Positions 3,731-43,951 of a stretch of 52,383 nt of DNA are shown here, in pieces; position 1 is the first letter of the stretch, and each line of letters opens with the position of its first letter. The position numbers were made by a program, and so were the translations under genes. Source of the stretch: a virus; IMG/VR virus record IMGVR_UViG_3300033145_003438, positions 1 through 52,383 of that record. The stretch is one strand, 5' to 3'. The notes beneath the pieces are model-generated. The model was not told the origin of the DNA and searched no databases. It saw only the letters and a program-made list of their open reading frames with translations.

Positions 3731-4246
3731 ATGGCAGAACTTCAACGAGCACTTTCATACGATCAAGACGGGCAGCCGGTCATGGTGATTTTCAAGAAGA
3801 AAGCACCGGTTTTAACGTTTTCCGTCGAGAAAAAGACCATCGAGTCCTACATCATCGAGCAGAAAGACGCCTGGATGTACTCAAGGGATCACTATCCGGC
3901 CAAGATTCCAATCTTTCACGGTTGGAAGAAAAGGGGTCTTTTGGATGTGAACGGTAATCAACAAACTGTTCCGGATGTCACAGAACGGGTGGTCAGCTTC
4001 GATTATGCCATGAGGCTGAAAGCGAATGAACTTTGCTATCAGTTCGAACTGGGAGAGGCAACAACCCAGAGGTTCGCGCAGATCATATCCCTCATCGAGG
4101 ACGGACTGGGCGATCTCATAGCCATGCCCCCGCAGAAAACGGAAGATAAAGTTTTTGGGGAGATCAAGCTATCGTCTCAAGGACAAGATTTCTATAACGA
4201 CGCCACAGAGGAAGTGCCGATCACCGATAATGTAGTGAGTGGGTAA
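3731..4246 (+). CDS. hypothetical protein upstream of the portal gene
   Basis: The 171-residue product has no recognised motif. It is a mixed alpha/beta soluble protein, without a signal peptide or membrane segment, and ends in an acidic, polar tail. It sits between terL and the portal gene, three bases from the latter, so it belongs to the head operon. Such a position is often filled by a small virion or portal-associated protein, but this is only context. Confidence 0.7.
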   Translation: MAELQRALSYDQDGQPVMVIFKKKAPVLTFSVEKKTIESYIIEQKDAWMYSRDHYPAKIPIFHGWKKRGLLDVNGNQQTVPDVTERVVSFDYAMRLKANELCYQFELGEATTQRFAQIISLIEDGLGDLIAMPPQKTEDKVFGEIKLSSQGQDFYNDATEEVPITDNVVSG

Positions 4247-4249
4247 AAA

Positions 4250-6394
4250 ATGGGCGCAGAAGAGTTTTACGACAACATAAGCAGGCATGACGGGGACGGA
4301 CTCACACCAGAGCAACAAGTAGAGGATATTCCCCACAACACGGGTACTATCGGATCTCATTTCCTCGATAAAGATCCGCAAACCCAGAAGTATTTCCGCA
4401 TGATCCGGTCCTGGCACAATTACGAACGGACCAAGCAGGCCGCGAATCGTGAAGAACGGATGAAGGACCATGATGTCCGTGATGGCGACCAATGGGATGA
4501 GGACGATAAGGAAGAGGTCGAGGCCAGGGGGCAGAAAGCGTCTGTGTTTAACCTGGTCAAGGGTACTTGCGATTGGATTACAGGCACGGAAAAGCGCACC
4601 AAGGTCGATTACGCCGTTCTTCCCAGGCGAAAAGAGGAAGCAAAAGAGGCCGAATCCAAGACCAAGATGTTCAAGTACACTTCCGATGTTTCGAAATTGA
4701 CCTTTGCGCGGTCAGCAGCGTTTGCCGATGGGGTTATTTCCGGTCTGGGTTGGATTGATACCGGCATCAGGTCGGATGAAAGCGACGATCCGATCTATGT
4801 TCGATATGAGGACTGGCGAAACGTCTGGTACGACTCCCACGCGAAAGAGCGTGATTTGTCTGACGGTCGTTACCAATTCCGTACAAAGGCTGTGGATCTT
4901 GATGTAGCAGTGGCCATGTTTCCCGATAGAGCGGATGCGATCATGGCCTCCTTTCATCAAAATGAGCTCAGCGATGATGAATACGCAGAAACGGGTATCA
5001 ATCCGGAAGAGGATGCTATTGCCGATCAGGGCGATGCTCTTGACGCCGGCGTGAAACGAGACAGGGTGAAGCTGATCTCCTGTGAATATCGCGTGCCTGC
5101 CAAGGTCAAGATCATTCGTGGAAAAGAACTGGGGTCGATAAATGGGTCTTTTTATGATGAGAAAAATGAAGGCATGGCCGGTCTCGTCGAATCAGGACAC
5201 GCTTCTCTCTACGATGCGATCAAGATGGTTATGTGGAAGATGATCTTTGTGGGTAACTTCGTGCTGCAGAACAGAAAACGAGTTTACAACCACAATCATT
5301 TTTCCCTGGTTCCATTCTGGGGATTCCGGAAAAAAAGAGACAATTCGCCTTATGGTGCGGTCCGGAACATGCGCGACCCCCAGGACGATTTGAATAAGCG
5401 CCGATCAAAAGCCCTTTACATCCTATCCACGAAACAGGTCATCCATGAAGAAGATACGATTGAGGATGTTGATGACTTTGCAGAGGAGATTGCACGTCCT
5501 GATGGGATCGCAGAGGTAAAAAAAGGGGCTCTTTCAGGTAACAAGATCCAAATCAACGAGGAAAGAGGTCTGGCCATAGAGCATGTCAGGCTTATGGAGC
5601 AGGACCAACAATTTATTGAGGCCACCGGAGGCGTGACGGACGAAAATAAGGGGCAAGAGACCAATGCGACATCTGGCAAGGCGATTCTGGCCCGGCAGGA
5701 ACAAGGACATGTCACAACCGCAGACCTGTTCGACAATTACCGGTACGCTTTTAAAACCCTTGGAGAAATTGTTCTTTCCCTGATGGAGCAGTTTTACTCA
5801 GAAGAAAAGACCATCCGGATTACCGGCAATGATGGACAGCCAGAATACGTCGAGATCAACAAACCTGGACAGGACGGGGAGAAGATCAATGATATTACAT
5901 CCACCCAGGCTGACTTTATCATCGATGCGCAGGAATACAACGCCACTGTTCAGCTATCCATGGCCGAACGACTGGGCGACATGATTTCTAAGTTACCGCA
6001 GGAAGTATCGGTCTATCTCGTAGACCTTTGGATCGCTATGGCGCCAGGGCTGCCGGAAAAAGAAAGAGAGGTCGCACTTGAGAGGATCAGAGGCAAGCTA
6101 AATCTTACCGACCCTGATGAAGATCCGGATGATCCCAAGGTAAAGGCACGAAAAGAGGCACAGGCAGCTGAGATGGAGAAGCAGAAAGCCATTGAGGACC
6201 GTCTCATCGCTCTGGAAATGGCTTTGAAAGAAGCTGAGATCAAAGAGAAGGAAGCTGAAGCGGAAAAGGATTTCGCAGACGCCGATGCAAAACGGGCCGC
6301 AATCGGAAACAAAAATGAGGAGATGCGAATCAAGCGGGCAGAGGTCTTGGATAAAATCGAAACGCGGGAACAACAGTCAGCAGCGGAAGGCTAA
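4250..6394 (+). CDS. portal protein (P22 gp1-like)
   Basis: The 714-residue product has the length and layout of P22-type portal proteins, the dodecameric ring at the capsid vertex through which DNA enters and leaves. Recognisable blocks are the N-terminal DGDQWDEDDK region (about residues 78-87), the VFNLVKGTCDWITGTEKRTK block (about 99-118) and NATSGKAILARQEQGH (about 475-490). After it comes the LFDNYRYAFKTLGEIVLSLM wing helix. The C-terminal ~100 residues form a long charged coiled coil (AEMEKQKAIEDRLIALEMAL), resembling the P22 barrel. It starts three bases after the previous gene. Confidence 0.88.
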   Translation: MGAEEFYDNISRHDGDGLTPEQQVEDIPHNTGTIGSHFLDKDPQTQKYFRMIRSWHNYERTKQAANREERMKDHDVRDGDQWDEDDKEEVEARGQKASVFNLVKGTCDWITGTEKRTKVDYAVLPRRKEEAKEAESKTKMFKYTSDVSKLTFARSAAFADGVISGLGWIDTGIRSDESDDPIYVRYEDWRNVWYDSHAKERDLSDGRYQFRTKAVDLDVAVAMFPDRADAIMASFHQNELSDDEYAETGINPEEDAIADQGDALDAGVKRDRVKLISCEYRVPAKVKIIRGKELGSINGSFYDEKNEGMAGLVESGHASLYDAIKMVMWKMIFVGNFVLQNRKRVYNHNHFSLVPFWGFRKKRDNSPYGAVRNMRDPQDDLNKRRSKALYILSTKQVIHEEDTIEDVDDFAEEIARPDGIAEVKKGALSGNKIQINEERGLAIEHVRLMEQDQQFIEATGGVTDENKGQETNATSGKAILARQEQGHVTTADLFDNYRYAFKTLGEIVLSLMEQFYSEEKTIRITGNDGQPEYVEINKPGQDGEKINDITSTQADFIIDAQEYNATVQLSMAERLGDMISKLPQEVSVYLVDLWIAMAPGLPEKEREVALERIRGKLNLTDPDEDPDDPKVKARKEAQAAEMEKQKAIEDRLIALEMALKEAEIKEKEAEAEKDFADADAKRAAIGNKNEEMRIKRAEVLDKIETREQQSAAEG

Positions 6395-8241: not shown

Positions 8242-8459
8242 ATGGGACAAACAGTAGTGGGTACCGGTGATGCGAAAGCGATCAAGAAGTTTTCTGCTTT
8301 TCTCGCACTCGATGTACCGAAAAAAGCGTATTGGACTCGGAAGTTCATGGGGTACGGCGAAACGGCCTCCATGCCTATCCAGATGCTGAAGGAACTGGAA
8401 AGTGATGCTGGTGAGCAGGTTACGTTTGACCTGACCATGCAGATGACGATGCAGCCGGT
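8242..8459 (+). CDS. major capsid protein, exon 1 (N4 gp56-like family)
   Basis: The first exon encodes 72 complete residues plus two bases of codon 73 of an N4 gp56/DUF4043-type major capsid protein. The reading begins at an ATG preceded by GGAGGAATTAAA. The block after the start (KKFSAFLALDVPKKAYWTR, then GEQVTFDLTMQM) is the typical N-terminus of this family. The frame then runs into unrelated sequence and stops within about eight codons, exactly where a group I intron starts. Joining base 8459 to base 9234 restores the expected QPV-EGDDVLENREEDL continuation. The spliced gene would be 1125 nt (374 residues). Confidence 0.88.
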
Positions 8460-8615
8460 TAACCTTAGCCGCCTTGCCGCGTAAGTGGCATTGCAAAGTG
8501 GGTGAAATGCTGGAAACCCCTAAGAGCCCGAAACACCACAACGCAGCTGGCAACGGCAAACGTGATGGTTTGAAAAGGATCGGGATTGGGCAATCAGCAG
8601 CGAAGGTTCATGAGA

Positions 8616-9032
8616 TTAAAGAGAGTTGAGGATATGGAGTTGTTGTTTAAGAGAATGCCTGAGTTCCAAAATGTTTTTGTCAAGTCCTTGACGGGCTGGT
8701 CTGGAGCCAAAGGTTTTTCTGAATTTTATAGCTACTTCCGCCTGCTCTCTTTTTATAACAAGATATGGCAATACGTCGTAAAGCAACTTAAGAGCTGTTT
8801 TCGGAGATGCACGCCATTCGTGCTTTGGTTTCCAATTTGGTTTATGCGAAGGGCTTTTTCGGTGATATACCTGACCTCCAAATTTATCATACAGCCATTC
8901 AATAAGATCGGCTTTTGTATTGGTTACTCCGAGAATAAGGAAATGGCGGTTTTTCTTTTTGTAAAAAACAATAGAAAAATGTCCCTCTCCATCAAGAATG
9001 CCAGCAAGATACGCAAGGTTGGTTTTATTCAT
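8616..9032 (-). CDS. LAGLIDADG homing endonuclease, antisense inside the intron
   Basis: The 138-residue product contains a single LAGLIDADG motif close to the start (LAYLAGILDGEGHFS, about residues 6-20), so it should act as a homodimer. Such enzymes cut the intronless allele and so spread the intron. It lies wholly between the Q and R core elements (P6 region) and is encoded on the strand opposite to the capsid gene, so it cannot be translated from the capsid pre-mRNA. ATG 9032 is preferred because it places the motif at the usual distance from the N-terminus. A TTG at 9053 would add seven residues. A good promoter-like sequence lies immediately upstream. Confidence 0.85.
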   Translation of the reverse strand: MNKTNLAYLAGILDGEGHFSIVFYKKKNRHFLILGVTNTKADLIEWLYDKFGGQVYHRKSPSHKPNWKPKHEWRASPKTALKLLYDVLPYLVIKREQAEVAIKFRKTFGSRPARQGLDKNILELRHSLKQQLHILNSL

Positions 9033-9038
9033 AAGTTG

Positions 9039-9067
9039 TTTATGCACTTTCAAGAGATGTTTGTCAA
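9039..9067 (-). promoter_or_regulatory. candidate sigma70-type promoter for the antisense endonuclease gene
   Basis: On the minus strand TTGACA (9067-9062) and CATAAA (9044-9039) are separated by 17 bases, a consensus -35 and a moderate -10. Transcription would start almost at the ATG (9032), giving a leaderless or near-leaderless message. No Shine-Dalgarno sequence is visible, which fits. This is pattern-based only. Confidence 0.45.
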
Positions 9068-9233
9068 CAATCTCGTGATCAACGTTCAGAGACTATCTCT
9101 TCGGAGAGTACGGCCAAGCGGCCGGAAGTGCCCACCACCCCAACGGGGTGATGATATAGTCCCAACTGTATGGAAACATGCAGCAGCCAATAGTTTGGCG
9201 GGGTAGGGTTAGCGATCCTACTTGAAGGTGCTG

Positions 9234-10140
9234 TGAGGGCGATGATGTACTCGAAAACCGGGAAGAAGATCTGAAGTTCTACACGGATTCTCTTTATATC
9301 GATCAGCTTCGTGGTGGCGTCAACTCCGGTGGCAAGATGACCCGCAAACGGACCAAGCATAAACTGCGGAAGATTGCCCGTAGGCGTCAGTCCGACTGGT
9401 GGGGCAGGGTGTTTGACGAGCTCTTTTTCATGTACGGCAGTGGAGCAAGGGGCGTCAATCCGAAGTTCTTGTTCCCCACAGGTTACACGGGTTTTGCCGG
9501 AAACTCCTTTTCTGCTCCGGATACCGATCATATCCAGTATGGCGGCGGGAAGGTTAAGGCCACCGTCACGACATCGGAAACGATGAACCTGACCGAGATC
9601 GACAAGTTCCGGACCAAGGCCGTGATGATGGATGAAGTTACTGGAACAGCCGGCACGGACGGGGGTACCAAAAACCCGGCTATTCAGCCGATCATGGTTG
9701 ACGGGGAAGAGCACCATGTTTGTGTTATGAGTCCTTATCAGGCCTATAACGTGCGAGTTTCGACCACTGGCGGCCAGTGGCTTGATCTTCAGAAGTCTCT
9801 GGCGGCTGCCATCGGCACCAAGTCCAAGATCTTCAAGGGCGGTATGGGTATGCACAACAACGTGGTTCTTCATGAGCACAAATCGGTGATTCGATTTTCC
9901 GATTACGGTTCCGGTACGAATTTGCCGGCTGCCAGGGCTCTTTTCCTTGGAGAACAGGCCATGGTTTGTGCCTTCGGTTCTCCTGGCACCGGACTCCGGT
10001 TCGGGTGGCATGAGGAAACCAGGGACAATGGTAACCAGTTGATCATCACATCCAGTACCATCGTGGGGGTCGAGAAGGTTACTTTCAACGGCAAGGACTA
10101 CGGTGTCGGCGCGATCGATACCTACGCGACTCAGGCGTAA
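9234..10140 (+). CDS. major capsid protein, exon 2
   Basis: The second exon supplies the rest of the N4 gp56/DUF4043-like capsid protein. It reads in frame after splicing as a family-typical block: EGDDVLENREEDLKFYTDS, IDQLRGGV, GGKMTRKRT, then LFFMYGSGARGVN. Its C-terminal part includes VVLHEHKSVIRFSDYG and a FGWHEETRDNG segment typical of the family. The protein builds the icosahedral shell with the scaffold encoded upstream. The only internal ATG that could start this piece alone (9337) would remove the conserved YTDS-IDQ block, so independent expression is unlikely. Confidence 0.88.
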
Positions 10141-19703: not shown

Positions 19704-22700
19704 ATGCCTCTTTCTACCATAGAACAGTGGAATCAGGATCCAGAGTTTTCCCAACTTCCCTATCAACAAAAACGGCAAGTTATCGATAATTATTTCGACT
19801 CCCGGCTTGCTGATGATGAATACTTTTCCCTTTCCTATGATGACCAGGACAAGATTAAACACAATTTCTATGAAAAGGAAGTCGGTCCTGTTCCCATTGA
19901 GAGAACACCCCTGGTTCCAACGGTCCAAGAAGAAGAAAAGGGATTCTTTGGTCGGATCGGTGAAAAATGGAAGACCGGAGAGGCCCAGACCGAACTTGGC
20001 ATCCTGAGATCCCGTCAGTTAATGGGTGAAGACACGCCGGAGATCCGCGAGAGAATCGCCAAGGTTAAGAAGGATATGCCCCAAGGCGAAGAGGAAAAGC
20101 GGAACCTGTTTGAAAGAGCGATCGGTGCAGCGGCTGAAATGCTTCCCATCCAGGTAGAGGGCATGAAACAGGGCGCAAAACGTGGCATTGCCCTTGGTAC
20201 CGGCTTTGGGACTATTGCGGGTATTGCCGGTCAAGCCGGTCCACAAGTTGCTACACCTGAAGAAATCATCACCGTCCCTGCGGCATTTGCCGGTGGGTTT
20301 GGCGTGGGAATGGTTTCCGGGACCCTTGAGAACATCGGGAAGATTGAAGCCGGTCTTGCCTATGATGAATTGCTGGACCTGAAGGACGAAAACGGGAATA
20401 AAATCGATCCCAAGATTGCCAAGGCCGCGGCCGCTTCTGTAGGTGTTGTCAATGGTCTTATCGAAATGTCACAGATCGGGCTCCTCTTAAAAACCATTCC
20501 AGGCGGGAAGGCAATATTAACAGGTGCGATCAGAAAAACGATTACCGAAGCCGTTAAAAAGGGAACTCTAAAACAGGTAGCTTTAAGGGCCGGTATAAAA
20601 TACGGAGTATTTGTTACGGCTGAAACCGGGCAGGAGGTCTTACAGGAATCTACCAATATCCTGATGGCCGAGGTTGCAAAAAAGGTTGATCGTAATTTGG
20701 GGAATTCGAACATAGCGCCTGCCACCCGCCAGGAAATCATAAGCCGATTGGTGGAAACAGCCGAACAATCCGCATTAGCCTTCATGGCCATGGGTGCGCC
20801 GGGGACTGTAGTAACCACTGGCATGGATGTCCGGGCCGCCAGAAAGGACGCACGAAACGAACTTCTGGATCCTGGTGAAGAAGGCGCGGACGCCAGGGAG
20901 ATTTTAACCGGGGAAAAGCCGGTATCACCCGATATTGAGGCTGTTGATACCCTGGACGCTGAAGAACAAGCAAGGCAGTTCGATGAAGATGAGCTCGACC
21001 GAGTTCAATCCCAAGAGACACAGACTAAAAAACCGAAAATCGAAAAGCCCAAAGCCCCGTGGATTGCGCGATTGACCGATGCGCAACTTACCCAACGTAT
21101 TGAAAATCTTGAAAACAACAAACGAGTTGGCAGGTTAAATGATACCCAGGCCAGTGTTCTTGAACGCCTTCACACCGAAACTGAAAACCGCGGCATCAAG
21201 TCTGCTTCTGACTCTGCAGGCGTTTTCTTTAAAGAAGAGATCGAAGAAGAAAAGAAAGAAAACTCTGCGAAAGCAAAGGAAATATTTGAACAACCAACCG
21301 AGTTGTCCGGTAAATCGGCCCAGGAATCAGCGCAGGCCATTCTTGTAGAAGAGGAAATTTCCAAAAATCAGACCGCAAGGGATGAAGCCAAAAAAGATAA
21401 CAATCTAAAATATATCGCCAAAACTCTGAAAATTGACAATATCGATAACGCCTCCAACGAGGAACTATTACGAGCTAAAATGCAGTTGAAACACCAGGGC
21501 CGTGATGACCTTGTTCGGTCCATCGACAACGAATTCGATTCGCGGCGGTCCGCGAAAACAGAGGAGAGAGAAAAAAAACAGGCTGAATCTGAAAAGCAAT
21601 CACCACCGGAAATAGATATCAAAACTCCAAAAAAGGAAGAGCAAAAATACACGACCCTTGGCGGTGCGATCCGGAACATGGGTGGTATTAAAACCGGTGG
21701 GTTGAAAACGGACATCCTCTATCAGAATGATGCTGCTCAGAAAGGCAAGCTGATCAACGAAAAATCCGGTCTTGAGATCGAGAAAATGCAGAGTCAGCTT
21801 GTCGACGCTGGTTGGATGCTTCCCAGTGAAGACCTTACCCAGATTCTTTCTGAGAATCCGGACAGACTCCGAGAGGGTATGCTTGACGGAGAGGCCAAAA
21901 CCAAATGGCAGAAAGAACGCTCAGCAGAAAAACAAGCCCAGGAAGATGAAATTCCAGAACCAACAAAAGATGAGATGGAAGCCGATCCTTCACTGGCAGC
22001 GGCTTTCCCGGAATTAGCGCAACAATATGGAATAAAGACAAGCCCGGCAGAAAAACCCGAGGATCTTGATATCAGTTTTGATTTTGGGGCGAATACGGAC
22101 TCCGGTACCACATCGGCAGATATGGCGGGGGTGGCCACCACCGATACAAAAGACGATGACGGTGCTCATGAATATTCATCCACCCAGGTAAACATTCCTG
22201 AATCAGAGGCAAAAGAGATCAAGGAGTTTTCATCCCAGATACCGGATTCTGAACTGGCAGATGACGGGCGCGAAGATACTCCGCACATTACCGTAAAATA
22301 CGGGCTCCATACCAATGATTTGCGAAAAGCTCAGCCCCTTATAAAAGGGGTGGGACCGATCAAGGCGAAACTGGGAAAGGTTTCCATCTTTGAAAATGAT
22401 GATGAAGATGTTGTTATGGTGGAGATCGACAGCCCTGAACTGCATGCTCTCAATAAAAAGATTGCCGATGGTCTGGAACATACGGACACACATCCGGATT
22501 ACAAGCCCCATGCCACCATAGCGTATGTAAAAAAAGGTGAAGGGAAGAAGTATGGCGGGGATGATCGATTCGAAGGTAAAGAGATCACCCTGAACTCTTT
22601 GGTGTTTTCCGGAAAGGATGGAAGGGAAACAAAATATAACTTTAAAAAAAAGCCGAAATCTGCTAAGAAACCTACCGTGACCTCCGAAAAGGGGCCGGGC

Positions 22701-25700
22701 AAAACACCCACCACAAAAACCTCTCAAAGCCCGAAGGGTGGGGACAATCTTGAAGTGTTATATCAGCACGATACAAAGCTGTTTATTGACGACGATGGTA
22801 AAGAGTATCGTGCCGATGATGCTTCTGATTCTCTTTCCTTATTATCAGACAAAGAATTTGTTGAGATAACGGGTTATTCAAAAAATGATTTTAGGAGGAT
22901 GGGGGGGGCAATATATTTCATTCCAAAAGATAAGCCAGGCATAAACTCCATTCATCATATCTCTGGTGAGATTATATTAAGTGATGATTTAAAGAATAAT
23001 AAGAGCACTCTACAAAAAACATTAATTCACGAATTAACACATTGGGGGCAAATCCAAAAAAATGAGGCACCAGAAGCCTATTATGTTAATCCAGAAGAAA
23101 GTATCTCTGGTTTTATGGATTATTTTTCTGACCCCGCTGAAGTTAAGGCAAGATTTAATGCGGATGGGCGATCTGATGAAGAATACAACGCATTTATAAA
23201 AGATTTGAATTGGGCCAAAAGTACAGATTCCGGCAAGATTAAAGCTCCAGACATCGGTGAAATTCGAATTGAAACAAGAAAAAAATGGCGCATGCCATTG
23301 TCGTATATTAAACAGGAAATTAAGGCAGCTCAAAGAAAAAACGATTATAGAAATATCGCTCCCCGGAAGCTACAAAACGACATTGATGAAATAGAGGGAA
23401 TTGTCGGACATGAAACAAGCGACGCATTAACAAAGAAGGATGATTTACACGAACAGCTTGAAACGATTTACAACAGAGATCCAATATCCGATAGTGATAT
23501 ATCCAATATTAATGAGTTTTACTTCGAAACAAAACGTAAGTGGAACCTAAGAAGGCTTGGCTCCGCAGATAGAAAACTCCGCAACGATGAAATTGAATAT
23601 TATGAAATACCTGTAATGCGGGTTGAGGTTTTGGGTAAGAAAAATCCTCAAACCGGGAAAAGAGGAAGAATAAATCCAATAATCACTGAAGGTATCCTAA
23701 GGGACAAAACAGGTATCAAGGGAATTGCCGTAGGGCCAAATGAAATTAATATTGATTTAAACGCATCTAATGTAAAAAACATATATAAGCTTAACAAGAA
23801 AACCAAAAAGTTTTTTCTCCCTAACCCCACAATCTCACCGGAAAAGGTGAGCAAAGATGCTACCCCTGCATCAAAACCCACCGTAAAAACCAAAGAATTA
23901 TCCCCCTCTGTTGTTTCGATACAGGGCGCCACACAACCCAAACCATCCAGAAAGAAAAAAGAAGACACCCTAAAATTTGGCGAAACCATCGGAGGCTCTA
24001 AATACGACAAAGCCCAAGAGCGCCTTTCTCTTTCTTCGATCACGGATATGAACGAGCGGGAGAGACATAAAAACATCGTAAAGAGAAATATCTGGCCAAA
24101 GCCTGATTATGTAAAGATGGTTGAAAGTGGTCATTCTCCTGAAAACATGTACTTGATCAAGAAAGTAATCGATTCAATACCGGTTCGACCGGAAAAGGTT
24201 GAAGATCAGGAACTGTTCATACAGGAAGTGGGCAGGATTCGAGATATCGTTGAACAGATCAAACCCGGTAATGATATTCAGGGCCTTTTCGGTAAAATAT
24301 TCACGGAGGAATACCATTCTCGGTCTGGTTATTCAAAAGGCTGGACGGAAAAGGGCGGGCCTGTTGCCCACATGCTTAAACCCAAATTTCTGAAAGCCGT
24401 TCAAATCAGCAATTACGATATGTTGACCGCCAAACGAAAAGTTGAAAAGACCGGTTTCCCGGCAAAACAGGAGGCATGGAAGCAGGGCATTGAGATTGTA
24501 GAGCGTGGTTTTGGCGATAATGCCACATGGTCTATTTTTCGGCGCAAGGGTGGCAGAATGGTCGAAGTCCTTGGCAAGGGCTTTAAAACCAAAGAAGAGG
24601 CCCAGAATCACCTCACAGACGTTCTGCAACCGAAATTGAAAGCATCGATGAAGGGAAAGGGCCGGTTTAAGAAGCCCATGCTTGACCACATCACGCGAAC
24701 AGGGACCGACTATCGGGATGGGAAGGATATTACCACTGACGATATCCTTGAAACATTCGGTTTCCGGGGTGGTGAATTCGGTAAATGGTTGAACGAAAAG
24801 AATCAGCAGGAATCCCTGAATCATGCCTATGACGCTTTCATGGATCTTGCAAACATTCTGGACATCCCTCCCATGGCCATAAGCCTGAATGGTACGCTTG
24901 GTATCGCCTTCGGTGCCAGGGGATCGGGGGGGGCGGCTGCGCATTATGAAGGCGATAAGGTCGTTATCAACCTTACGAAACTATCCGGCGCTGGATCGCT
25001 GGCCCATGAGTGGGGGCATGCTTTTGATGATTATTTCGGAAAAATGGCAAAATCGCCACAATCCGGAAAGTATATGATCACTCCCCTGTCTGCAGGAAAA
25101 ACAGGGAAAGAATCAACCGTCCGGCCGGAAATGCTCAATGCATGGCTGAACGTCAGAGGCCGGATTGCAAAACGTGATGAAACCAAAAAAGAGGCCATTG
25201 CTCGGGTTGAAAAGGAAATAAAGAAAAGCAAGCGATATACCAAGTCCTGGCTGGACGGGATCAGGACCGAGTTAGAAAGAGATGATACCGCATACAGTAA
25301 GAAGAAAAGGGCTGCAACCGAAAGTGAGTTAAAGTCCTGGGATAAATTGACGGAGGAAATCCTTGCCGGAAAGCATAAACCCGTTCTTGATGAAAATGTC
25401 CGGTCAAAATACACCATGCCGGCAGTCAATGACTTTTATAAGGGCGTCAAAGGCGTTCTTCCTGCCTCTGATACGAGAACAAGCCTATCGGCCAACATCA
25501 ACAGCCTTCAGCGCAACGTAGAGCACCTGGCAGAGATTAAATCGGATAAAGCAAAACCACGTCAGATCACAACCAATTTCAAGGGCAAGGCAAAAGAGCT
25601 CGGGAATGTTGAATACTGGGGCAATCCCCATGAACTGTTCGCCCGGGCGCTTGAATCCTATGTTGATGATCAGATAAGAGAACAACCCAACAAAAGCCAG

Positions 25701-28700
25701 TACCTCGTTCACAGCACTCAGAACAGCCTGTACGGTGAAGACATCTCTCCATATCCCATGGGTGTAGAACGTGTTGCCATCAACAAGGCGTTTGACGGGC
25801 TTTTTGATGTTCTTGAATCAAAAGAGACCGATAGGGGCGTTGCTCTCTTTTACAAGCGTCGCAATCCTCAAAAGTATAGTGTTCTCAGCAAGAAAAAACT
25901 TGAAGCTGCTATCACCGGCATATCTGGTGCATGGGAAAACGCCCCTGATATCGTCGTTCTGCAAAAGCAAAACGAGTTGCCAGAAAAAATACAGAAAATG
26001 GCCGATGGTGATATCGTTGACGGTGCACACTATCAGGGAAAGATTTTCTTGGTAGCCGAAAATATGAAGGACACCAACTATGTTGTTGAGGTTCTTCTCC
26101 ATGAGGCATTTGGCCACTACGGTATTCGTGGCGTCCTTGGGAAGAACTTAGCTCCCGTTTTAAGAGACGTTTATATCGCCAAACGAAAAGAGGTTCAAGA
26201 GATAGCCCAGGAATACGGCTTTGATCTCAGTGAAGAATCCGGAAGAGCACTGGCCGCCGACGAGTGGCTTGCCAGGGAAGCCCAGAAGAACCCCGAATCA
26301 AAATGGATTGACCGCGTTATCTCAGCGATCCGCGCCTTCGTCCGGAAATTCTACCCCAAGTTCAAGATGACCGACAAGGATATCCGGAAGATACTGGCCG
26401 ATGCAAAATCTTATGTGACTAAAGGAAAGCGAAAATCACATAAAAGCCGCATACCTTCATTCTCCAAAGACAAAAAGGCCGATAAGTGGCACTCCCAGAT
26501 GGCCAACTTCCTGAACATGAAGCTGACCAACGGACCCGCAAAACAGATCAAGTCTAATCTTCAGGCGTGGGCGAAGAAAGGTTTGATCAAACAAGAAGAA
26601 TTGGAATGGTCCGGATTGCTTGACTGGTTGGATTCCAAGAGCAAGGTCAACACATGGAATGCCGTTGCGGACAAAGATCGTTTTACCATCGAATTAAGGG
26701 AAGATGGCCGGTATTACCTTTATGATACCGATCTTGGACCTGATAATACGGCGGCAATGCCGGATTATGAAAAGTTTGAAGACGCCATTGCAAGCGCGGA
26801 GGATGTTGTTGATACCCGTAGGAACAAGACAATAAAACTTAATTTCAAGCCCAATAAACCAGGGAAGGTCAAAAAGATCGATACCCTGAATTACCTGAAA
26901 GATAACAATGTCACGTTGCAGGAGGTTCTGAAAGACAGTGAACTGTGGGTGGTGTGGGATGGTGAAGAAGAAACGTATTTTGAAACACACCAAGAGGCGC
27001 TTGATTACGGGCAAGAAATAGGCGCACCGCCAGAAGACATTTTTTATAAAGAAAGTAAGATGTCTGATGCGACCAAGTTTTCCCAATACACACTTCCCGG
27101 TGGAAAAAATTACAAAGAACTGCTTTTGACATTGCCGGCGAATTCCAAACCACAAACAAATGCGCTTAATGATTTTATTCGTCGGATGGAAAATAAGTAT
27201 GTTGGTACAGAACGACATTGGCGAGTTGCCATGAACGATCAAGAAGCAGATGAGTTTGAATCATTGGCAGAAGCCGAACGTTTAGGTTTTTCGACAGACA
27301 GCCAAGAATATAAGTCCTCCCACTGGCAAGAACCCAACGTATTAGCACACGTCCGATTCAACGAACGTACCGATGCAGACGGAAACAAGGTGTTGTTTAT
27401 TGAGGAGATACAGAGCGATTGGGCGTCCGAAGGTCGGAAGAAGGGGTTCCGTGGAAAGTTTAGGGGCCAAGGTTTTACTAAAAGCAAGGCTGTTTCTGAT
27501 GCTTTAAAACGTTCAAATATGGTTCCAAACGCTCCGTTTGTCGGGAGCACACAGAAATATGTGATGCTTGCGGTAAAGCGAATGGTAAGGCACGCCGCTG
27601 AAAACGGTTTCGACAAGATAGCCTGGACAACGGGACAGATACAATCAGATCGATACGATCTAAGCAAACAACTTGAGTCTATCACATATGCTCCCGATTC
27701 GAAGAAGGGGTTTCCGGGAATACTTCGAGCATATCCATTATCTCCAAATGAAGCGCCTATCATAAAACGAATTTCCGATGAAAATGAACTGGCTGTTGTT
27801 ATCGGAAAGGGTCTGGCAGAAAAAATCATTGATGGCGATAGAGATATCAGAGGTAAGGATCTCAAGGTAGACAGCCCCGGTATGCGCGGATTTTATGACA
27901 AGATTATCCCTGCTGCGGTTAATAAATTTTTCAACAAGGCCGCTTGGGGCAAGGCGAAGGTTGAGACAATAAAAATACAGACTGAAATAGGATCTGAGGG
28001 GTTTGAGATTCCCCAACGGGTTGAAGATGTCTGGTCTCTCCCACTCACCCCAAAAATGAAACAGAAAGCCCTCCGTGAGGGCATGCCCCTTTTTAAAAAG
28101 CGGGACCGCACCACCAAAAAGAGCGATACAGGATCCGGCATCCTTCCAGCGGAAGTCGAACAGCGCATGGAAGCATCCAGAGGCGTTCCGAAAACGACCC
28201 TGAAAGAAAAGGTCAAAGAGCAGATCGTAGAGATCCGCAGGCAGAGGCAGCATTTCCCCAAACTAAAGACTATCGAGGATAAAAACCTACGCCACCGTCT
28301 TGCCGATATCCTCCGGAGACATCAGGAAGTACCTGAATCGGTCAAGCAGCAGACAATAAAATTCTTGAGCTCATTTACCCAGGATCTATCCAAGCAGGAC
28401 TATGAAGCCTTTCGGATGCACATCATTCTGGCCGATATGAAACGGGATATCGACAAAGGCCTTTTGGATGAAAAATCAAAGCTGCCGTTCGGTTTTTCAT
28501 CCATAGACGATGTTGAAAAAGCCTTTAAGGGTTATCAGGAACTGGCAAACAACAATCCGAAGATCAAAAAAGCCCTGAAAAAAAGAAATGATAAGGTCAA
28601 TGAGATCAAGCAGAAACTGGTTGATGCCAAACTTCTGAAAAAAGAAGTGATGGAGGATGAAGACTATTTCCATCATCAAGTATTGATGTTCTGGGATGAT

Positions 28701-31217
28701 AAATACGGTCTTGCTACAGGTTCGAGCGATGTTAGAACCCACTGGCGCGGATGGATGGCAGCAAGGAAGGGATCTGCCCTTGATTACAACACCGAGTACA
28801 TTGAAGCCGAATTTATGGCCATATCTCAGCAGATGGCCCAGTTGGAGGCCGTTGCCACCCTGAAACGGATCAAGGACGAAGCGGATGTTTATTCTCAGAT
28901 AAAGTCCCATGCCAAGGCCGCGAACTTCAATAATTTTTACAAGAAACTTAAAGATGCTTTCGGGCATGATGTTAAAGACACCGACGATGATCCTTTAAAG
29001 CCATTCAGGGCCAAGATCGCCATGTCCAACATGAAGCTGGCAGAGATGGCCGCGAATGGGAAATTACATTACGATAGCGAATGGCAAGAGATTGTAGATG
29101 CTTTGAACAATTCTTATTCGTTCTGGAAAGAGAATAAAGACGACATCCCCGATATACCAACTCCGGGTGTAGATGATCCGCGTTGGTTTCACTTTTTGTC
29201 TCATCTACTCAATACACAAGCACCGGGGGCAAACTGGGCCGCTACCATATTCAAAAGTATCAAAGGCCGAGATACGACCATTCAGAGCACCCTTGGCGGT
29301 GATTTCCTGACCTACCGCAATTTAATCCCCAAGGGATACAAACAGTGGAAACCAGACCCCGGCAAAGGATGGTTCTGGGCCAATACGGTTGCCGATAACG
29401 CCCTTCAAAGAATGATCGACGGTGAACTGAACCCGAAAGATGTTGAATTCCGGAAGATCATCGCAAAGGGCAGGGATCTAATATGGATCATCCCCGAGGG
29501 GCTTGCCGACACTCTGGATAAATTCATTGATTATGGGGATCCTTCACATATCGGGAAAGTGGCGGATAAAGCTCTTTCTATGTGGAAACAGTGGATCCTG
29601 TTAAATCCCTTCTCCGTGGTTCGATACAACCTTAATAATATGTCTGGTGACCTCGATGCGGTTCTGGCCTATGCACCCGGAATAGCCGGGAAGAAATACG
29701 CACATCAGGCCATGAAGGACCTCTGGAAGTGGCACAGAAGAAAGAATCTGCCGGCCAACGTGCAGAAAGAAATTGATGAAGCCCGGAAACTGGGAGTGAT
29801 CGGATCCGGCTTTTCCGTACAGGAAGTGGACGATGCCCTGAAAATTCTTTCCATGGATAAGATCGTTCGGGATGTCATTCTCGACGAAAAGCCCAACTGG
29901 TTTAACCCGAAGACCTACGGAGAAAAATACTGGAAATATGTTCAAATGTTTACGGCCCTGAGAGAGAACGTCCTCCGGTTGGCAGCCTACAGGTGGTTCC
30001 TCGAAAATAACAATAAACAGCTTTATGGTGCATCCAAACCGGAAGAGATCGATGCAATAACAGATCCCCACGAAAAGGCCGCGAAACTGGCCCGAGAACT
30101 CTTGGGGGATTACGGCAACCTTTCAAAGACCGGCGAGTGGGTCCGGAAGAGACTCATACCTTTCTATTCCTGGCTTGAAATCAATACCCCCCGATATGTC
30201 TATCTGATGCGAAACTCGAAATATGAGAACAGAAAAGCGGCATCTGCTACCGGTAAAATGGCAATGGTGGGTGGTAAAAAGGTTATCATGTCCTCTGCAA
30301 GTTTGGCTTTAAGGGCATCGATGCTCTATGGCGCCGTAATGCTTTGGAACATGACCATGTTTCCAGACGAAGAAAGGGAATTGGGCGAAACCGGCAGAAA
30401 TCAGCTTCACATCATTTTGGGAAGACGGGAGGACGGCTCAATCATTTCCATACGATTTCAAGGCGCTCTTTCGGATGCGCTTTCATGGTTCGGCATGGAA
30501 GATTGGCCTTATGATGTCAAAGACCTGATTGAAGGCAAAAAGACTATTCTTGATAAGTTGAAAGAAGCCGGCAAGGGCGTGTTTAATCGTACAATTCATG
30601 GACTCAGGCCAGAAATTAAAATGTTTGCCGAGCAGATCAGCGGGAAGAGTTACTATCCAGATGCTACCAGAGGGCTTCCGATCCGTGATCGCCTCGAACA
30701 CGCCATGAAGACTTTCAAGCTGGACCAGCTTACCGGATATAGGGCGGTGATCGGACGTCCGGGACGGGGAAAGAATCCCGATGCTCCAAGAGCGGTACAG
30801 GTCATGCAACACCTTGTCAACGATCTGCAGAGAATACTTGTCTATTATGCGGATCCCGGGATGCTGGCCTATTATGACACACGCGGGATGGTTTTCGATT
30901 GGTTGGCCAAAGAGGGTGACGAAAAGCGGTACGGTGGCAGACCCACGAGCAAGGCCAATTCATTTTATTGGTATAAACAAGCCATGAAATTTGGGGACCT
31001 TGAAGCAGCCCATCGATATTTAACAAAATACTACGAAAAGGGTGGAACGGAAAGATCAAAAATTACTTCAATCCGAAACGCACACCCCTTATCCAGTATT
31101 CCGAAGATGAGAAGAAAGGCCTTCCGGGATTCCCTGAAGCCGGACCAGGATGAAGTCTTAAAAAGAGCCCTTAAATGGTACAAAAAAACATATTTAGAAA
31201 AGGAAGGTGAGAAATGA
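19704..31217 (+). CDS. giant polyvalent ejection protein (3837 residues)
   Basis: A single uninterrupted frame encodes a multi-domain phage polyvalent protein. From the N-terminus: a helical region and Gly/Ala-rich hydrophobic segments (about 155-330); charged linkers; a 2H phosphoesterase-like domain with HITV (H861) and HATI (H936); a lower-GC segment with HELTH (H1109); an LPD1-type domain with GAGSLAHEWGHAFDDYF (H1768); a further HEAFGH (H2133); a domain with FIEEIQSDW (about 2565-2573) and later AWTTGQIQSDRYDLSK; and a helical C-terminal LPD38-like region with LNPFSVVRYNLNNMSGD (about 3300) and WLEINTPRYVYLM (about 3490), ending in a possible membrane segment (about 3531-3555). Such proteins enter the cell with the DNA and are thought to disarm host defences. 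The frame overlaps the next gene (ATGA). Confidence 0.88.
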   Translation: MPLSTIEQWNQDPEFSQLPYQQKRQVIDNYFDSRLADDEYFSLSYDDQDKIKHNFYEKEVGPVPIERTPLVPTVQEEEKGFFGRIGEKWKTGEAQTELGILRSRQLMGEDTPEIRERIAKVKKDMPQGEEEKRNLFERAIGAAAEMLPIQVEGMKQGAKRGIALGTGFGTIAGIAGQAGPQVATPEEIITVPAAFAGGFGVGMVSGTLENIGKIEAGLAYDELLDLKDENGNKIDPKIAKAAAASVGVVNGLIEMSQIGLLLKTIPGGKAILTGAIRKTITEAVKKGTLKQVALRAGIKYGVFVTAETGQEVLQESTNILMAEVAKKVDRNLGNSNIAPATRQEIISRLVETAEQSALAFMAMGAPGTVVTTGMDVRAARKDARNELLDPGEEGADAREILTGEKPVSPDIEAVDTLDAEEQARQFDEDELDRVQSQETQTKKPKIEKPKAPWIARLTDAQLTQRIENLENNKRVGRLNDTQASVLERLHTETENRGIKSASDSAGVFFKEEIEEEKKENSAKAKEIFEQPTELSGKSAQESAQAILVEEEISKNQTARDEAKKDNNLKYIAKTLKIDNIDNASNEELLRAKMQLKHQGRDDLVRSIDNEFDSRRSAKTEEREKKQAESEKQSPPEIDIKTPKKEEQKYTTLGGAIRNMGGIKTGGLKTDILYQNDAAQKGKLINEKSGLEIEKMQSQLVDAGWMLPSEDLTQILSENPDRLREGMLDGEAKTKWQKERSAEKQAQEDEIPEPTKDEMEADPSLAAAFPELAQQYGIKTSPAEKPEDLDISFDFGANTDSGTTSADMAGVATTDTKDDDGAHEYSSTQVNIPESEAKEIKEFSSQIPDSELADDGREDTPHITVKYGLHTNDLRKAQPLIKGVGPIKAKLGKVSIFENDDEDVVMVEIDSPELHALNKKIADGLEHTDTHPDYKPHATIAYVKKGEGKKYGGDDRFEGKEITLNSLVFSGKDGRETKYNFKKKPKSAKKPTVTSEKGPGKTPTTKTSQSPKGGDNLEVLYQHDTKLFIDDDGKEYRADDASDSLSLLSDKEFVEITGYSKNDFRRMGGAIYFIPKDKPGINSIHHISGEIILSDDLKNNKSTLQKTLIHELTHWGQIQKNEAPEAYYVNPEESISGFMDYFSDPAEVKARFNADGRSDEEYNAFIKDLNWAKSTDSGKIKAPDIGEIRIETRKKWRMPLSYIKQEIKAAQRKNDYRNIAPRKLQNDIDEIEGIVGHETSDALTKKDDLHEQLETIYNRDPISDSDISNINEFYFETKRKWNLRRLGSADRKLRNDEIEYYEIPVMRVEVLGKKNPQTGKRGRINPIITEGILRDKTGIKGIAVGPNEINIDLNASNVKNIYKLNKKTKKFFLPNPTISPEKVSKDATPASKPTVKTKELSPSVVSIQGATQPKPSRKKKEDTLKFGETIGGSKYDKAQERLSLSSITDMNERERHKNIVKRNIWPKPDYVKMVESGHSPENMYLIKKVIDSIPVRPEKVEDQELFIQEVGRIRDIVEQIKPGNDIQGLFGKIFTEEYHSRSGYSKGWTEKGGPVAHMLKPKFLKAVQISNYDMLTAKRKVEKTGFPAKQEAWKQGIEIVERGFGDNATWSIFRRKGGRMVEVLGKGFKTKEEAQNHLTDVLQPKLKASMKGKGRFKKPMLDHITRTGTDYRDGKDITTDDILETFGFRGGEFGKWLNEKNQQESLNHAYDAFMDLANILDIPPMAISLNGTLGIAFGARGSGGAAAHYEGDKVVINLTKLSGAGSLAHEWGHAFDDYFGKMAKSPQSGKYMITPLSAGKTGKESTVRPEMLNAWLNVRGRIAKRDETKKEAIARVEKEIKKSKRYTKSWLDGIRTELERDDTAYSKKKRAATESELKSWDKLTEEILAGKHKPVLDENVRSKYTMPAVNDFYKGVKGVLPASDTRTSLSANINSLQRNVEHLAEIKSDKAKPRQITTNFKGKAKELGNVEYWGNPHELFARALESYVDDQIREQPNKSQYLVHSTQNSLYGEDISPYPMGVERVAINKAFDGLFDVLESKETDRGVALFYKRRNPQKYSVLSKKKLEAAITGISGAWENAPDIVVLQKQNELPEKIQKMADGDIVDGAHYQGKIFLVAENMKDTNYVVEVLLHEAFGHYGIRGVLGKNLAPVLRDVYIAKRKEVQEIAQEYGFDLSEESGRALAADEWLAREAQKNPESKWIDRVISAIRAFVRKFYPKFKMTDKDIRKILADAKSYVTKGKRKSHKSRIPSFSKDKKADKWHSQMANFLNMKLTNGPAKQIKSNLQAWAKKGLIKQEELEWSGLLDWLDSKSKVNTWNAVADKDRFTIELREDGRYYLYDTDLGPDNTAAMPDYEKFEDAIASAEDVVDTRRNKTIKLNFKPNKPGKVKKIDTLNYLKDNNVTLQEVLKDSELWVVWDGEEETYFETHQEALDYGQEIGAPPEDIFYKESKMSDATKFSQYTLPGGKNYKELLLTLPANSKPQTNALNDFIRRMENKYVGTERHWRVAMNDQEADEFESLAEAERLGFSTDSQEYKSSHWQEPNVLAHVRFNERTDADGNKVLFIEEIQSDWASEGRKKGFRGKFRGQGFTKSKAVSDALKRSNMVPNAPFVGSTQKYVMLAVKRMVRHAAENGFDKIAWTTGQIQSDRYDLSKQLESITYAPDSKKGFPGILRAYPLSPNEAPIIKRISDENELAVVIGKGLAEKIIDGDRDIRGKDLKVDSPGMRGFYDKIIPAAVNKFFNKAAWGKAKVETIKIQTEIGSEGFEIPQRVEDVWSLPLTPKMKQKALREGMPLFKKRDRTTKKSDTGSGILPAEVEQRMEASRGVPKTTLKEKVKEQIVEIRRQRQHFPKLKTIEDKNLRHRLADILRRHQEVPESVKQQTIKFLSSFTQDLSKQDYEAFRMHIILADMKRDIDKGLLDEKSKLPFGFSSIDDVEKAFKGYQELANNNPKIKKALKKRNDKVNEIKQKLVDAKLLKKEVMEDEDYFHHQVLMFWDDKYGLATGSSDVRTHWRGWMAARKGSALDYNTEYIEAEFMAISQQMAQLEAVATLKRIKDEADVYSQIKSHAKAANFNNFYKKLKDAFGHDVKDTDDDPLKPFRAKIAMSNMKLAEMAANGKLHYDSEWQEIVDALNNSYSFWKENKDDIPDIPTPGVDDPRWFHFLSHLLNTQAPGANWAATIFKSIKGRDTTIQSTLGGDFLTYRNLIPKGYKQWKPDPGKGWFWANTVADNALQRMIDGELNPKDVEFRKIIAKGRDLIWIIPEGLADTLDKFIDYGDPSHIGKVADKALSMWKQWILLNPFSVVRYNLNNMSGDLDAVLAYAPGIAGKKYAHQAMKDLWKWHRRKNLPANVQKEIDEARKLGVIGSGFSVQEVDDALKILSMDKIVRDVILDEKPNWFNPKTYGEKYWKYVQMFTALRENVLRLAAYRWFLENNNKQLYGASKPEEIDAITDPHEKAAKLARELLGDYGNLSKTGEWVRKRLIPFYSWLEINTPRYVYLMRNSKYENRKAASATGKMAMVGGKKVIMSSASLALRASMLYGAVMLWNMTMFPDEERELGETGRNQLHIILGRREDGSIISIRFQGALSDALSWFGMEDWPYDVKDLIEGKKTILDKLKEAGKGVFNRTIHGLRPEIKMFAEQISGKSYYPDATRGLPIRDRLEHAMKTFKLDQLTGYRAVIGRPGRGKNPDAPRAVQVMQHLVNDLQRILVYYADPGMLAYYDTRGMVFDWLAKEGDEKRYGGRPTSKANSFYWYKQAMKFGDLEAAHRYLTKYYEKGGTERSKITSIRNAHPLSSIPKMRRKAFRDSLKPDQDEVLKRALKWYKKTYLEKEGEK

Positions 31218-42970: not shown

Positions 42971-43951
42971 TCAATATGAGAACTTTCTCCCCTCCCTCTT
43001 GAGCGTCTCCTGTAAAATCTTTGCGTAAATTTCGGTTGTTTTTATATCAACATGCCCGAGCCATTCCTTGACGACCTCAAGGGCAATCCCGCTTTTTAAC
43101 ATCTGCGTGCCGAATGTATGCCGGGTGTGGTGAAGGTGAACATCCTCAATACCGCATGCCCTGGCGATCACCTTAAACGCTTTGGTATACTTTGACAGGT
43201 CGTTCCAATGGGTGAAAACATATCCGATGTCTTTTTCCTGGCCCATAGCCTCTTTTGTTCCGGACAGGATAGGTATGGTTCTTTCTTTATCGCCTTTTCC
43301 GATCAGCCGCAGGGTATCACCGTGGACATCCTGCCATTTCAGCCGGGCTATTTCTTCTCTACGAGCTCCGGTCCAAAGAGCAAATTTAATTACCCGGTAC
43401 ATTTCATAATTATTTTTCGTGGCATATTTGAGCATATTTTCGCGTTCTTTGTCGGTCAATATTCTCGGATGCCGTTCCGGGAGCTTGAACTCGACAACCG
43501 GCACTTTCTTTTTAATGTCACCCCAAGCATGGGCCTTATTCAAAATGCCCCTGATATGCCGGAGGTATGTATTGACAGATACTTTTTTAACCCTTCTGGT
43601 CAAGCAGATAGCCTTAAATTCGTCTATTTTATGTTCATTGATACGTGAGAGTAGGGTAGAGGCTCCAAACGCCTCAGAGAGCAGCTTGAAGGCCAGTTCA
43701 TAGGCTTCAATGGTCTTGTCTGATATGTCGGTGTGTTTCAGGAAAAAGCGATCCTTGAATTGTTTAATGGTAATCCGTTTTTTATCGTCAAGTTCTTCAA
43801 GTTTGCCCTTTAAATATTTGCGCTTCATTATATTATAAAGCGCCGTGGCCTCTCGTTTGTTTTTGGTTTTGAGAGCACGCGGTTTATCGCGCTCAAACTC
43901 GTAATAGTAATATCCGTTTTTTCTTTTAAATAGTCGCATGGATATTTTCAT
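42971..43951 (-). CDS. int: tyrosine recombinase (phage integrase)
   Basis: The 326-residue product has an N-terminal DNA-binding and SAM-like domain with YEFERDKPRALKTKNKREA at about 17-35. The C-terminal catalytic domain contains LWTGARREEIARLKWQDV (Arg of the first catalytic box, about 195-212), HLHHTRHTFGTQML (His-x-x-Arg, about 273-286) and WLGHVDIKTTEIYAKI (His and the Tyr nucleophile, about 299-314). It integrates the phage at the tRNA-Lys site located 60 bp downstream of its stop. The excisionase-like gene lies directly upstream. Confidence 0.93.
   Translation of the reverse strand: MKISMRLFKRKNGYYYYEFERDKPRALKTKNKREATALYNIMKRKYLKGKLEELDDKKRITIKQFKDRFFLKHTDISDKTIEAYELAFKLLSEAFGASTLLSRINEHKIDEFKAICLTRRVKKVSVNTYLRHIRGILNKAHAWGDIKKKVPVVEFKLPERHPRILTDKERENMLKYATKNNYEMYRVIKFALWTGARREEIARLKWQDVHGDTLRLIGKGDKERTIPILSGTKEAMGQEKDIGYVFTHWNDLSKYTKAFKVIARACGIEDVHLHHTRHTFGTQMLKSGIALEVVKEWLGHVDIKTTEIYAKILQETLKREGRKFSY

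Follow-up and report, generated by a model that had tools for sequence, protein, structure and literature searches.

An antisense I-CreI-like endonuclease gene in a group I intron of the major capsid gene of a probably temperate P22-like phage

RESULTS

The major capsid gene is split

The window analyzed here is a 52,383-nucleotide IMG/VR virus record (IMGVR_UViG_3300033145_003438, positions 1 to 52,383). On its plus strand it carries the two exons of a major capsid protein gene (8242 to 8459 and 9234 to 10140), separated by a 774-nt group I intron (8460 to 9233). The opposite strand of the intron contains an open reading frame for an I-CreI-like, single-motif LAGLIDADG endonuclease (8616 to 9053, minus strand). 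Profile searches revealed P22-like portal, terminase, and capsid genes and a tyrosine recombinase, and the phage is therefore probably a temperate podophage of the P22-like kind. The recombinase, on which the temperate reading rests, is XerA-like (42971 to 43951, minus strand). Elsewhere in the window, a PcrA/UvrD-like helicase gene (45264 to 47921, minus strand) probably contains an intein (about 280 aa, near residues 237 to 516); the NCBIfam model intein_Cterm scored above its cut-off there and Pfam Intein_splicing scored below. A giant protein of 3,837 aa, encoded at 19704 to 31217 (plus strand), gave sub-cut-off matches to CLCA_X and RNA 2',3'-cyclic phosphodiesterase.

The capsid protein belongs to the P22/N4-gp56-like family (Phage_capsid_3 [PF13252]; phrog_334). 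Exon 1 comprises 72 codons plus 2 nt and matches the N-terminal part of both profiles, and exon 2 matches PF13252 (E value, 1.9e-42) and phrog_334 (4e-76). The two exons are in register, with contiguous matches at positions 3 to 67 and 68 to 375 of PF13252 and at positions 1 to 70 and 72 to 380 of phrog_334. The initial annotation had claimed that joining 8459 to 9234 restores the family sequence. Indeed, the join creates a Val codon (GT from exon 1, T from exon 2) and restores the protein gap free, and the product aligns as a single block over the junction with 74 uninterrupted IMG/VR relatives. In the unspliced message, translation would stop after 80 codons at an in-frame UAA (8482 to 8484).

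Anatomy of the group I intron

In a scan of 951 nt, the intron matched the full RF00028 covariance model (positions 1 to 253) with an E value of 1.5e-9, though its score of 43.3 bits is below the curated gathering score of 50 bits. For this reason, an Rfam scan of the whole window at the gathering threshold listed nothing, and the group I assignment therefore rests on the E value, the anatomy, and comparison with relatives.

P1 and P3 to P10 can all be drawn in the 774-nt intron. P1 (8456 to 8471) is formed by CGGU (8456 to 8459) and GCCG (8468 to 8471); the RF00028 alignment places a U8459.G8468 pair at the 5' splice site, as first proposed, and the final intron base is a G (G9233). P10, which had been predicted to mark the 3' site, can be read directly off the sequence as CCUUA, immediately 5' of G8468, pairing with the UGAGG that opens exon 2. 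This pairing is less perfect in L089, a homologous intron described below. The RF00028 alignment and a helix check, whose minimum-energy fold gives the P4 pairing, place P4 (8508 to 8513/8594 to 8599) and P5 (8518 to 8520/8582 to 8584). The P6 extension (8610 to 9076) pairs AUGAGAUU (8610 to 8617) with AAUCUCGU (9069 to 9076) at 8 of 8 bases, and its loop holds the endonuclease gene. P7 (9091 to 9095/9157 to 9161), P7.1, P7.2, and P8 (9136 to 9141/9145 to 9150) lie within 9091 to 9161, as placed by RF00028, relatives, and the helix check, and the P9, P9.1, and P9.2 hairpins occupy 9166 to 9221 (helix check). P3, P5 to P9, and the additional P7 and P9 helices all pair at these coordinates. The presence of P7.1 and P7.2 suggests subgroup IA, and we describe the intron as IA-like.

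The P3-P9 core is kept across relatives, and two of its helices covary. P3 reads GUGGGU/GCCCAC in the window (8498 to 8503/9130 to 9135), CGACGU/GCGUCG in L015, CUGGGU/GCCCAG in L085, and CGAGGU/GCCUCG in L084; these differences among homologous introns are compensatory changes at several pairs. P9 covaries among the window, L089, and L015; P8 and P9 were placed by hand, and some of their pairs fail in L084 and L085. Taken with the E value and the register of the capsid halves, this anatomy upholds the original description of a capsid gene split by a group I intron.

The antisense ORF encodes an I-CreI-type endonuclease

The endonuclease frame is intact over 138 aa from an ATG at 9032 (145 aa from a TTG at 9053) and lies antisense to the capsid gene in the P6 loop, the location and orientation initially reported. 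Its family profile matches I-MsoI/I-CreI, with E values of 2.9e-24 for a fused two-copy chain and about 2e-11 for single I-MsoI chains. An AlphaFold model of the protein has a pLDDT of 92.5, and the top Foldseek hits in the PDB are all I-CreI (E value, 4e-8). Among 28 homologues, the residues of the AG..DGEG motif and K101, the counterpart of the active-site Lys of I-CreI, are invariant. The protein scores 20.1 bits against Pfam LAGLIDADG_1, below the cut-off of 23.1 bits, and its relative L102 passes at 27.6 bits. The fold and profile evidence outweigh the missed cut-off, in agreement with the LAGLIDADG identity given at the outset. The top PHROG (phrog_5046) is named HNH endonuclease; this identity was ruled out because the predicted fold matches LAGLIDADG proteins, and on the model the label is a misnomer for the window protein. 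I-CreI and I-MsoI, whose hosts are algal chloroplast rRNA genes, share with the window protein their fold, single LAGLIDADG motif, size, and origin in a group I intron, at about 25% identity.

Empty sites and same-site introns

Intron-free alleles are common among relatives. The insertion site is uninterrupted in 74 of 80 IMG/VR capsid relatives and interrupted in one (L015); the remaining five are ended by contig ends. All 24 capsid relatives from bacterial genomes that span the site are uninterrupted, including one that is 71% identical and comes from a Desulfosarcina assembly. The DNA flanking the site is well conserved; the highest identity, seen in L018, is 25 of 26 nt.

The nearest ribozyme relatives of the window intron are introns at the same capsid site. 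L015 and L089 carry a homologous ribozyme with P7.1 and P7.2 at this insertion point; compared with the window, L089 has 86.5% identity in a 141-nt 5' segment, which takes in the end of exon 1, and 76% identity in a 106-nt 3' segment. Unlike the window, both have a sense HNH-type gene, which in L089 occupies the P6 region in place of the antisense LAGLIDADG gene. Ribozymes of this type with sense HNH-type genes also occur at other capsid sites (L084 and L085). Since the nearest same-site ribozymes carry a sense HNH gene, these sequences are most simply read as the replacement of one endonuclease by the other on this ribozyme lineage, with a flip of orientation. The wider occurrence of the HNH gene suggests that it came first and the LAGLIDADG gene later. 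Separately, a P7.1/P7.2-type intron core lies beside an endonuclease-like ORF in L088 (7508 to 7670, reverse-complement coordinates), within an apparent tape-measure gene.

Antisense endonucleases recur in capsid introns

With the window endonuclease as a single query, a viral scan gave no matches; with the alignment of its family as the query, 80 IMG/VR loci were found. Two parts of a capsid gene, separated by less than 1.6 kb, enclose the endonuclease in antisense orientation at 23 of these loci and in sense orientation at 3, a comparison in which sense cases are undercounted, as the capsid queries were derived from antisense loci. At four further loci the gene is antisense and adjoins capsid parts that do not form a close pair around it, and intron hits add five sense cases. 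The host genes tested match phrog_1357 or phrog_9953 (major head protein). A regular expression for the window's P7.1/P7.2-type pattern found no match in the introns of this antisense family, since the ribozymes there belong to another sequence type.

On the endonuclease tree, whose deep branches are weakly supported, genes of like orientation cluster together. With capsid-based labels (29 antisense and 8 sense), 3 changes are needed, compared with a mean of 7.4 in 500 shuffles, none of which was as low. Both orientations occur among the rows nearest to the window. A strict single origin of orientation had fit an earlier set (11 antisense and 6 sense) whose antisense labels came solely from intron hits, with the window and LittleE added, and for which one change sufficed; it was dropped given the three changes needed with capsid-based labels. 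L105 and L174 are exceptions on the tree, being sense between capsid halves despite many antisense neighbors. In the phage loci L113, L125, L134, L139, and L166, sense LAGLIDADG genes coincide with group I intron hits, of which several of these loci have two or more; next to L125 lies a phrog_1357 capsid part. In L098, a second LAGLIDADG-like ORF (3866 to 4378) lies upstream of the antisense ORF and on the same strand as the capsid gene, so that one capsid gene possibly contains two introns of opposite endonuclease orientation.

Expression signals of the antisense genes

By our scoring, 23 of 26 antisense relatives have a Shine-Dalgarno sequence of at least 4 bases. The mean upstream promoter score of these 26 was 6.8 versus 5.9, above all 200 dinucleotide shuffles; for the small group of 8 sense relatives it was 6.2 versus 5.7, and 11 of 200 shuffles reached it. 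As a set, the antisense endonucleases thus carry an apparent Shine-Dalgarno sequence and sigma-70-like promoter of their own.

The window gene has a weak candidate promoter (9039 to 9067, minus strand) in which a good -35 element, TTGACA (9067 to 9062), is followed after 17 nt by a weak -10 element, CATAAA (9044 to 9039), ending 6 nt before the ATG. The -35 region and the 17-nt spacing are shared with L098 and L101. Under the scoring applied to the relatives, the window gene has no Shine-Dalgarno sequence, and the promoter scan tool listed no antisense promoter near it. The message could be leaderless, or the promoter could have weakened; this is the point on which our account is least secure. 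Given the missing Shine-Dalgarno sequence and the weak -10 element, the window endonuclease may be poorly expressed or decaying.

DISCUSSION

We consider it highly probable that the window holds a mobile, self-splicing group I intron in the capsid gene of a probably temperate P22-like phage, with an antisense I-CreI-type homing endonuclease that has its own promoter and was gained by exchange. The anatomy of the sequence, the homologies, and the empty sites in relatives are the basis of this scenario. The capsid transcript would self-splice at the borders marked by U8459 and G9233, restoring the capsid protein, and the opposite strand of the P6 loop would encode a homodimeric LAGLIDADG endonuclease of the I-CreI type. 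Expressed from its own antisense promoter, apart from late capsid transcription, this enzyme would cleave the capsid allele of an intronless coinfecting relative, and repair of the cut allele would copy the intron in. The endonuclease gene would have been exchanged on a ribozyme closest to those of same-site introns with sense HNH genes.

An unlikely alternative, and the one that survives best, is that the intron still splices and is passively inherited as a nonmobile remnant whose endonuclease is no longer expressed. The lack of a Shine-Dalgarno sequence and the poor -10 element, unlike the signals of most relatives, would fit such a remnant, but the 138-aa frame is intact, the LAGLIDADG motif and the active-site Lys equivalent to that of I-CreI are kept, and the fold is confidently predicted. 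It is very improbable that the insertion goes unspliced, leaving the capsid halves as separate proteins or the gene broken: a conserved, covarying ribozyme core sits exactly at the gap-free junction, homologous introns occupy the same site in other phages, and in the ORF list exon 2 has no ATG, GTG, or TTG start before 9337. The region does contain many overlapping frames, but the reading of the antisense ORF as spurious, in an ORF-less intron, has a negligible probability and is already contradicted by homology to the 80 IMG/VR endonuclease loci, the I-MsoI/I-CreI profile match, and the structural match to I-CreI.

A mobile capsid intron with an antisense endonuclease, our preferred reading, has precedents. 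In mycobacteriophage LittleE, published in 2013, the major capsid gene contains an 820-bp intron, described as most likely group I, whose splicing was shown by RT-PCR and N-terminal sequencing; like the window intron, it carries an I-CreI-like LAGLIDADG gene (gp14) on the bottom strand (PMC3706429). LittleE differs from the window in its phage, its capsid gene, and its intron length. Its endonuclease is 24% identical to that of the window, has an extra C-terminal part, and is annotated as HNH. Introns also occur in the capsid gene of some crAss-like phages. With these cases and the 23 of 80 homologues lying antisense between capsid halves, the initial annotation's view of the capsid gene as an unusual host for such an arrangement does not stand. 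The spliced capsid gene with an antisense endonuclease is a known kind of element, and the observation is sound. L098, L102, L112, L133, and other IMG/VR loci resemble the window in having a same-family antisense endonuclease between capsid halves; they differ in ribozyme sequence, in capsid family (N4-gp56-like), and, in most, in their clear Shine-Dalgarno sequence and promoter-like site. Antisense endonuclease genes within mobile group I introns are likewise found in the rDNA of Didymium squamulosum and D. iridis, for which an own promoter was proposed; unlike the window, these are eukaryotic nuclear rDNA introns with His-Cys genes, and the D. squamulosum ORF lies in P9 (PMC9548176).

Two aspects seem to be new. 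One is the endonuclease exchange with a flip of orientation at one site; the other is the recurrence of antisense capsid introns with apparent private promoters, on which a literature search covering few subscription journals found no paper. We tentatively suggest, at somewhat less than even odds, that a widespread class of capsid introns has settled on antisense I-CreI-type endonucleases with their own host-type promoter, which would permit action before late capsid transcription and keep ribosomes from disturbing ribozyme folding, and that the window represents an exchange between sense HNH and antisense LAGLIDADG genes on one ribozyme lineage at one site.

Capsid genes split by such introns are easily misannotated. 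That the endonucleases found with one ribozyme lineage at one site are of two unrelated kinds, with opposite orientations, is a further case in favor of ribozymes and endonucleases evolving separately. Private promoters would free antisense endonucleases from late capsid transcription, and their apparent presence, together with the frequent antisense orientation, suggests a testable way in which the homing genes of phages may escape late transcription.
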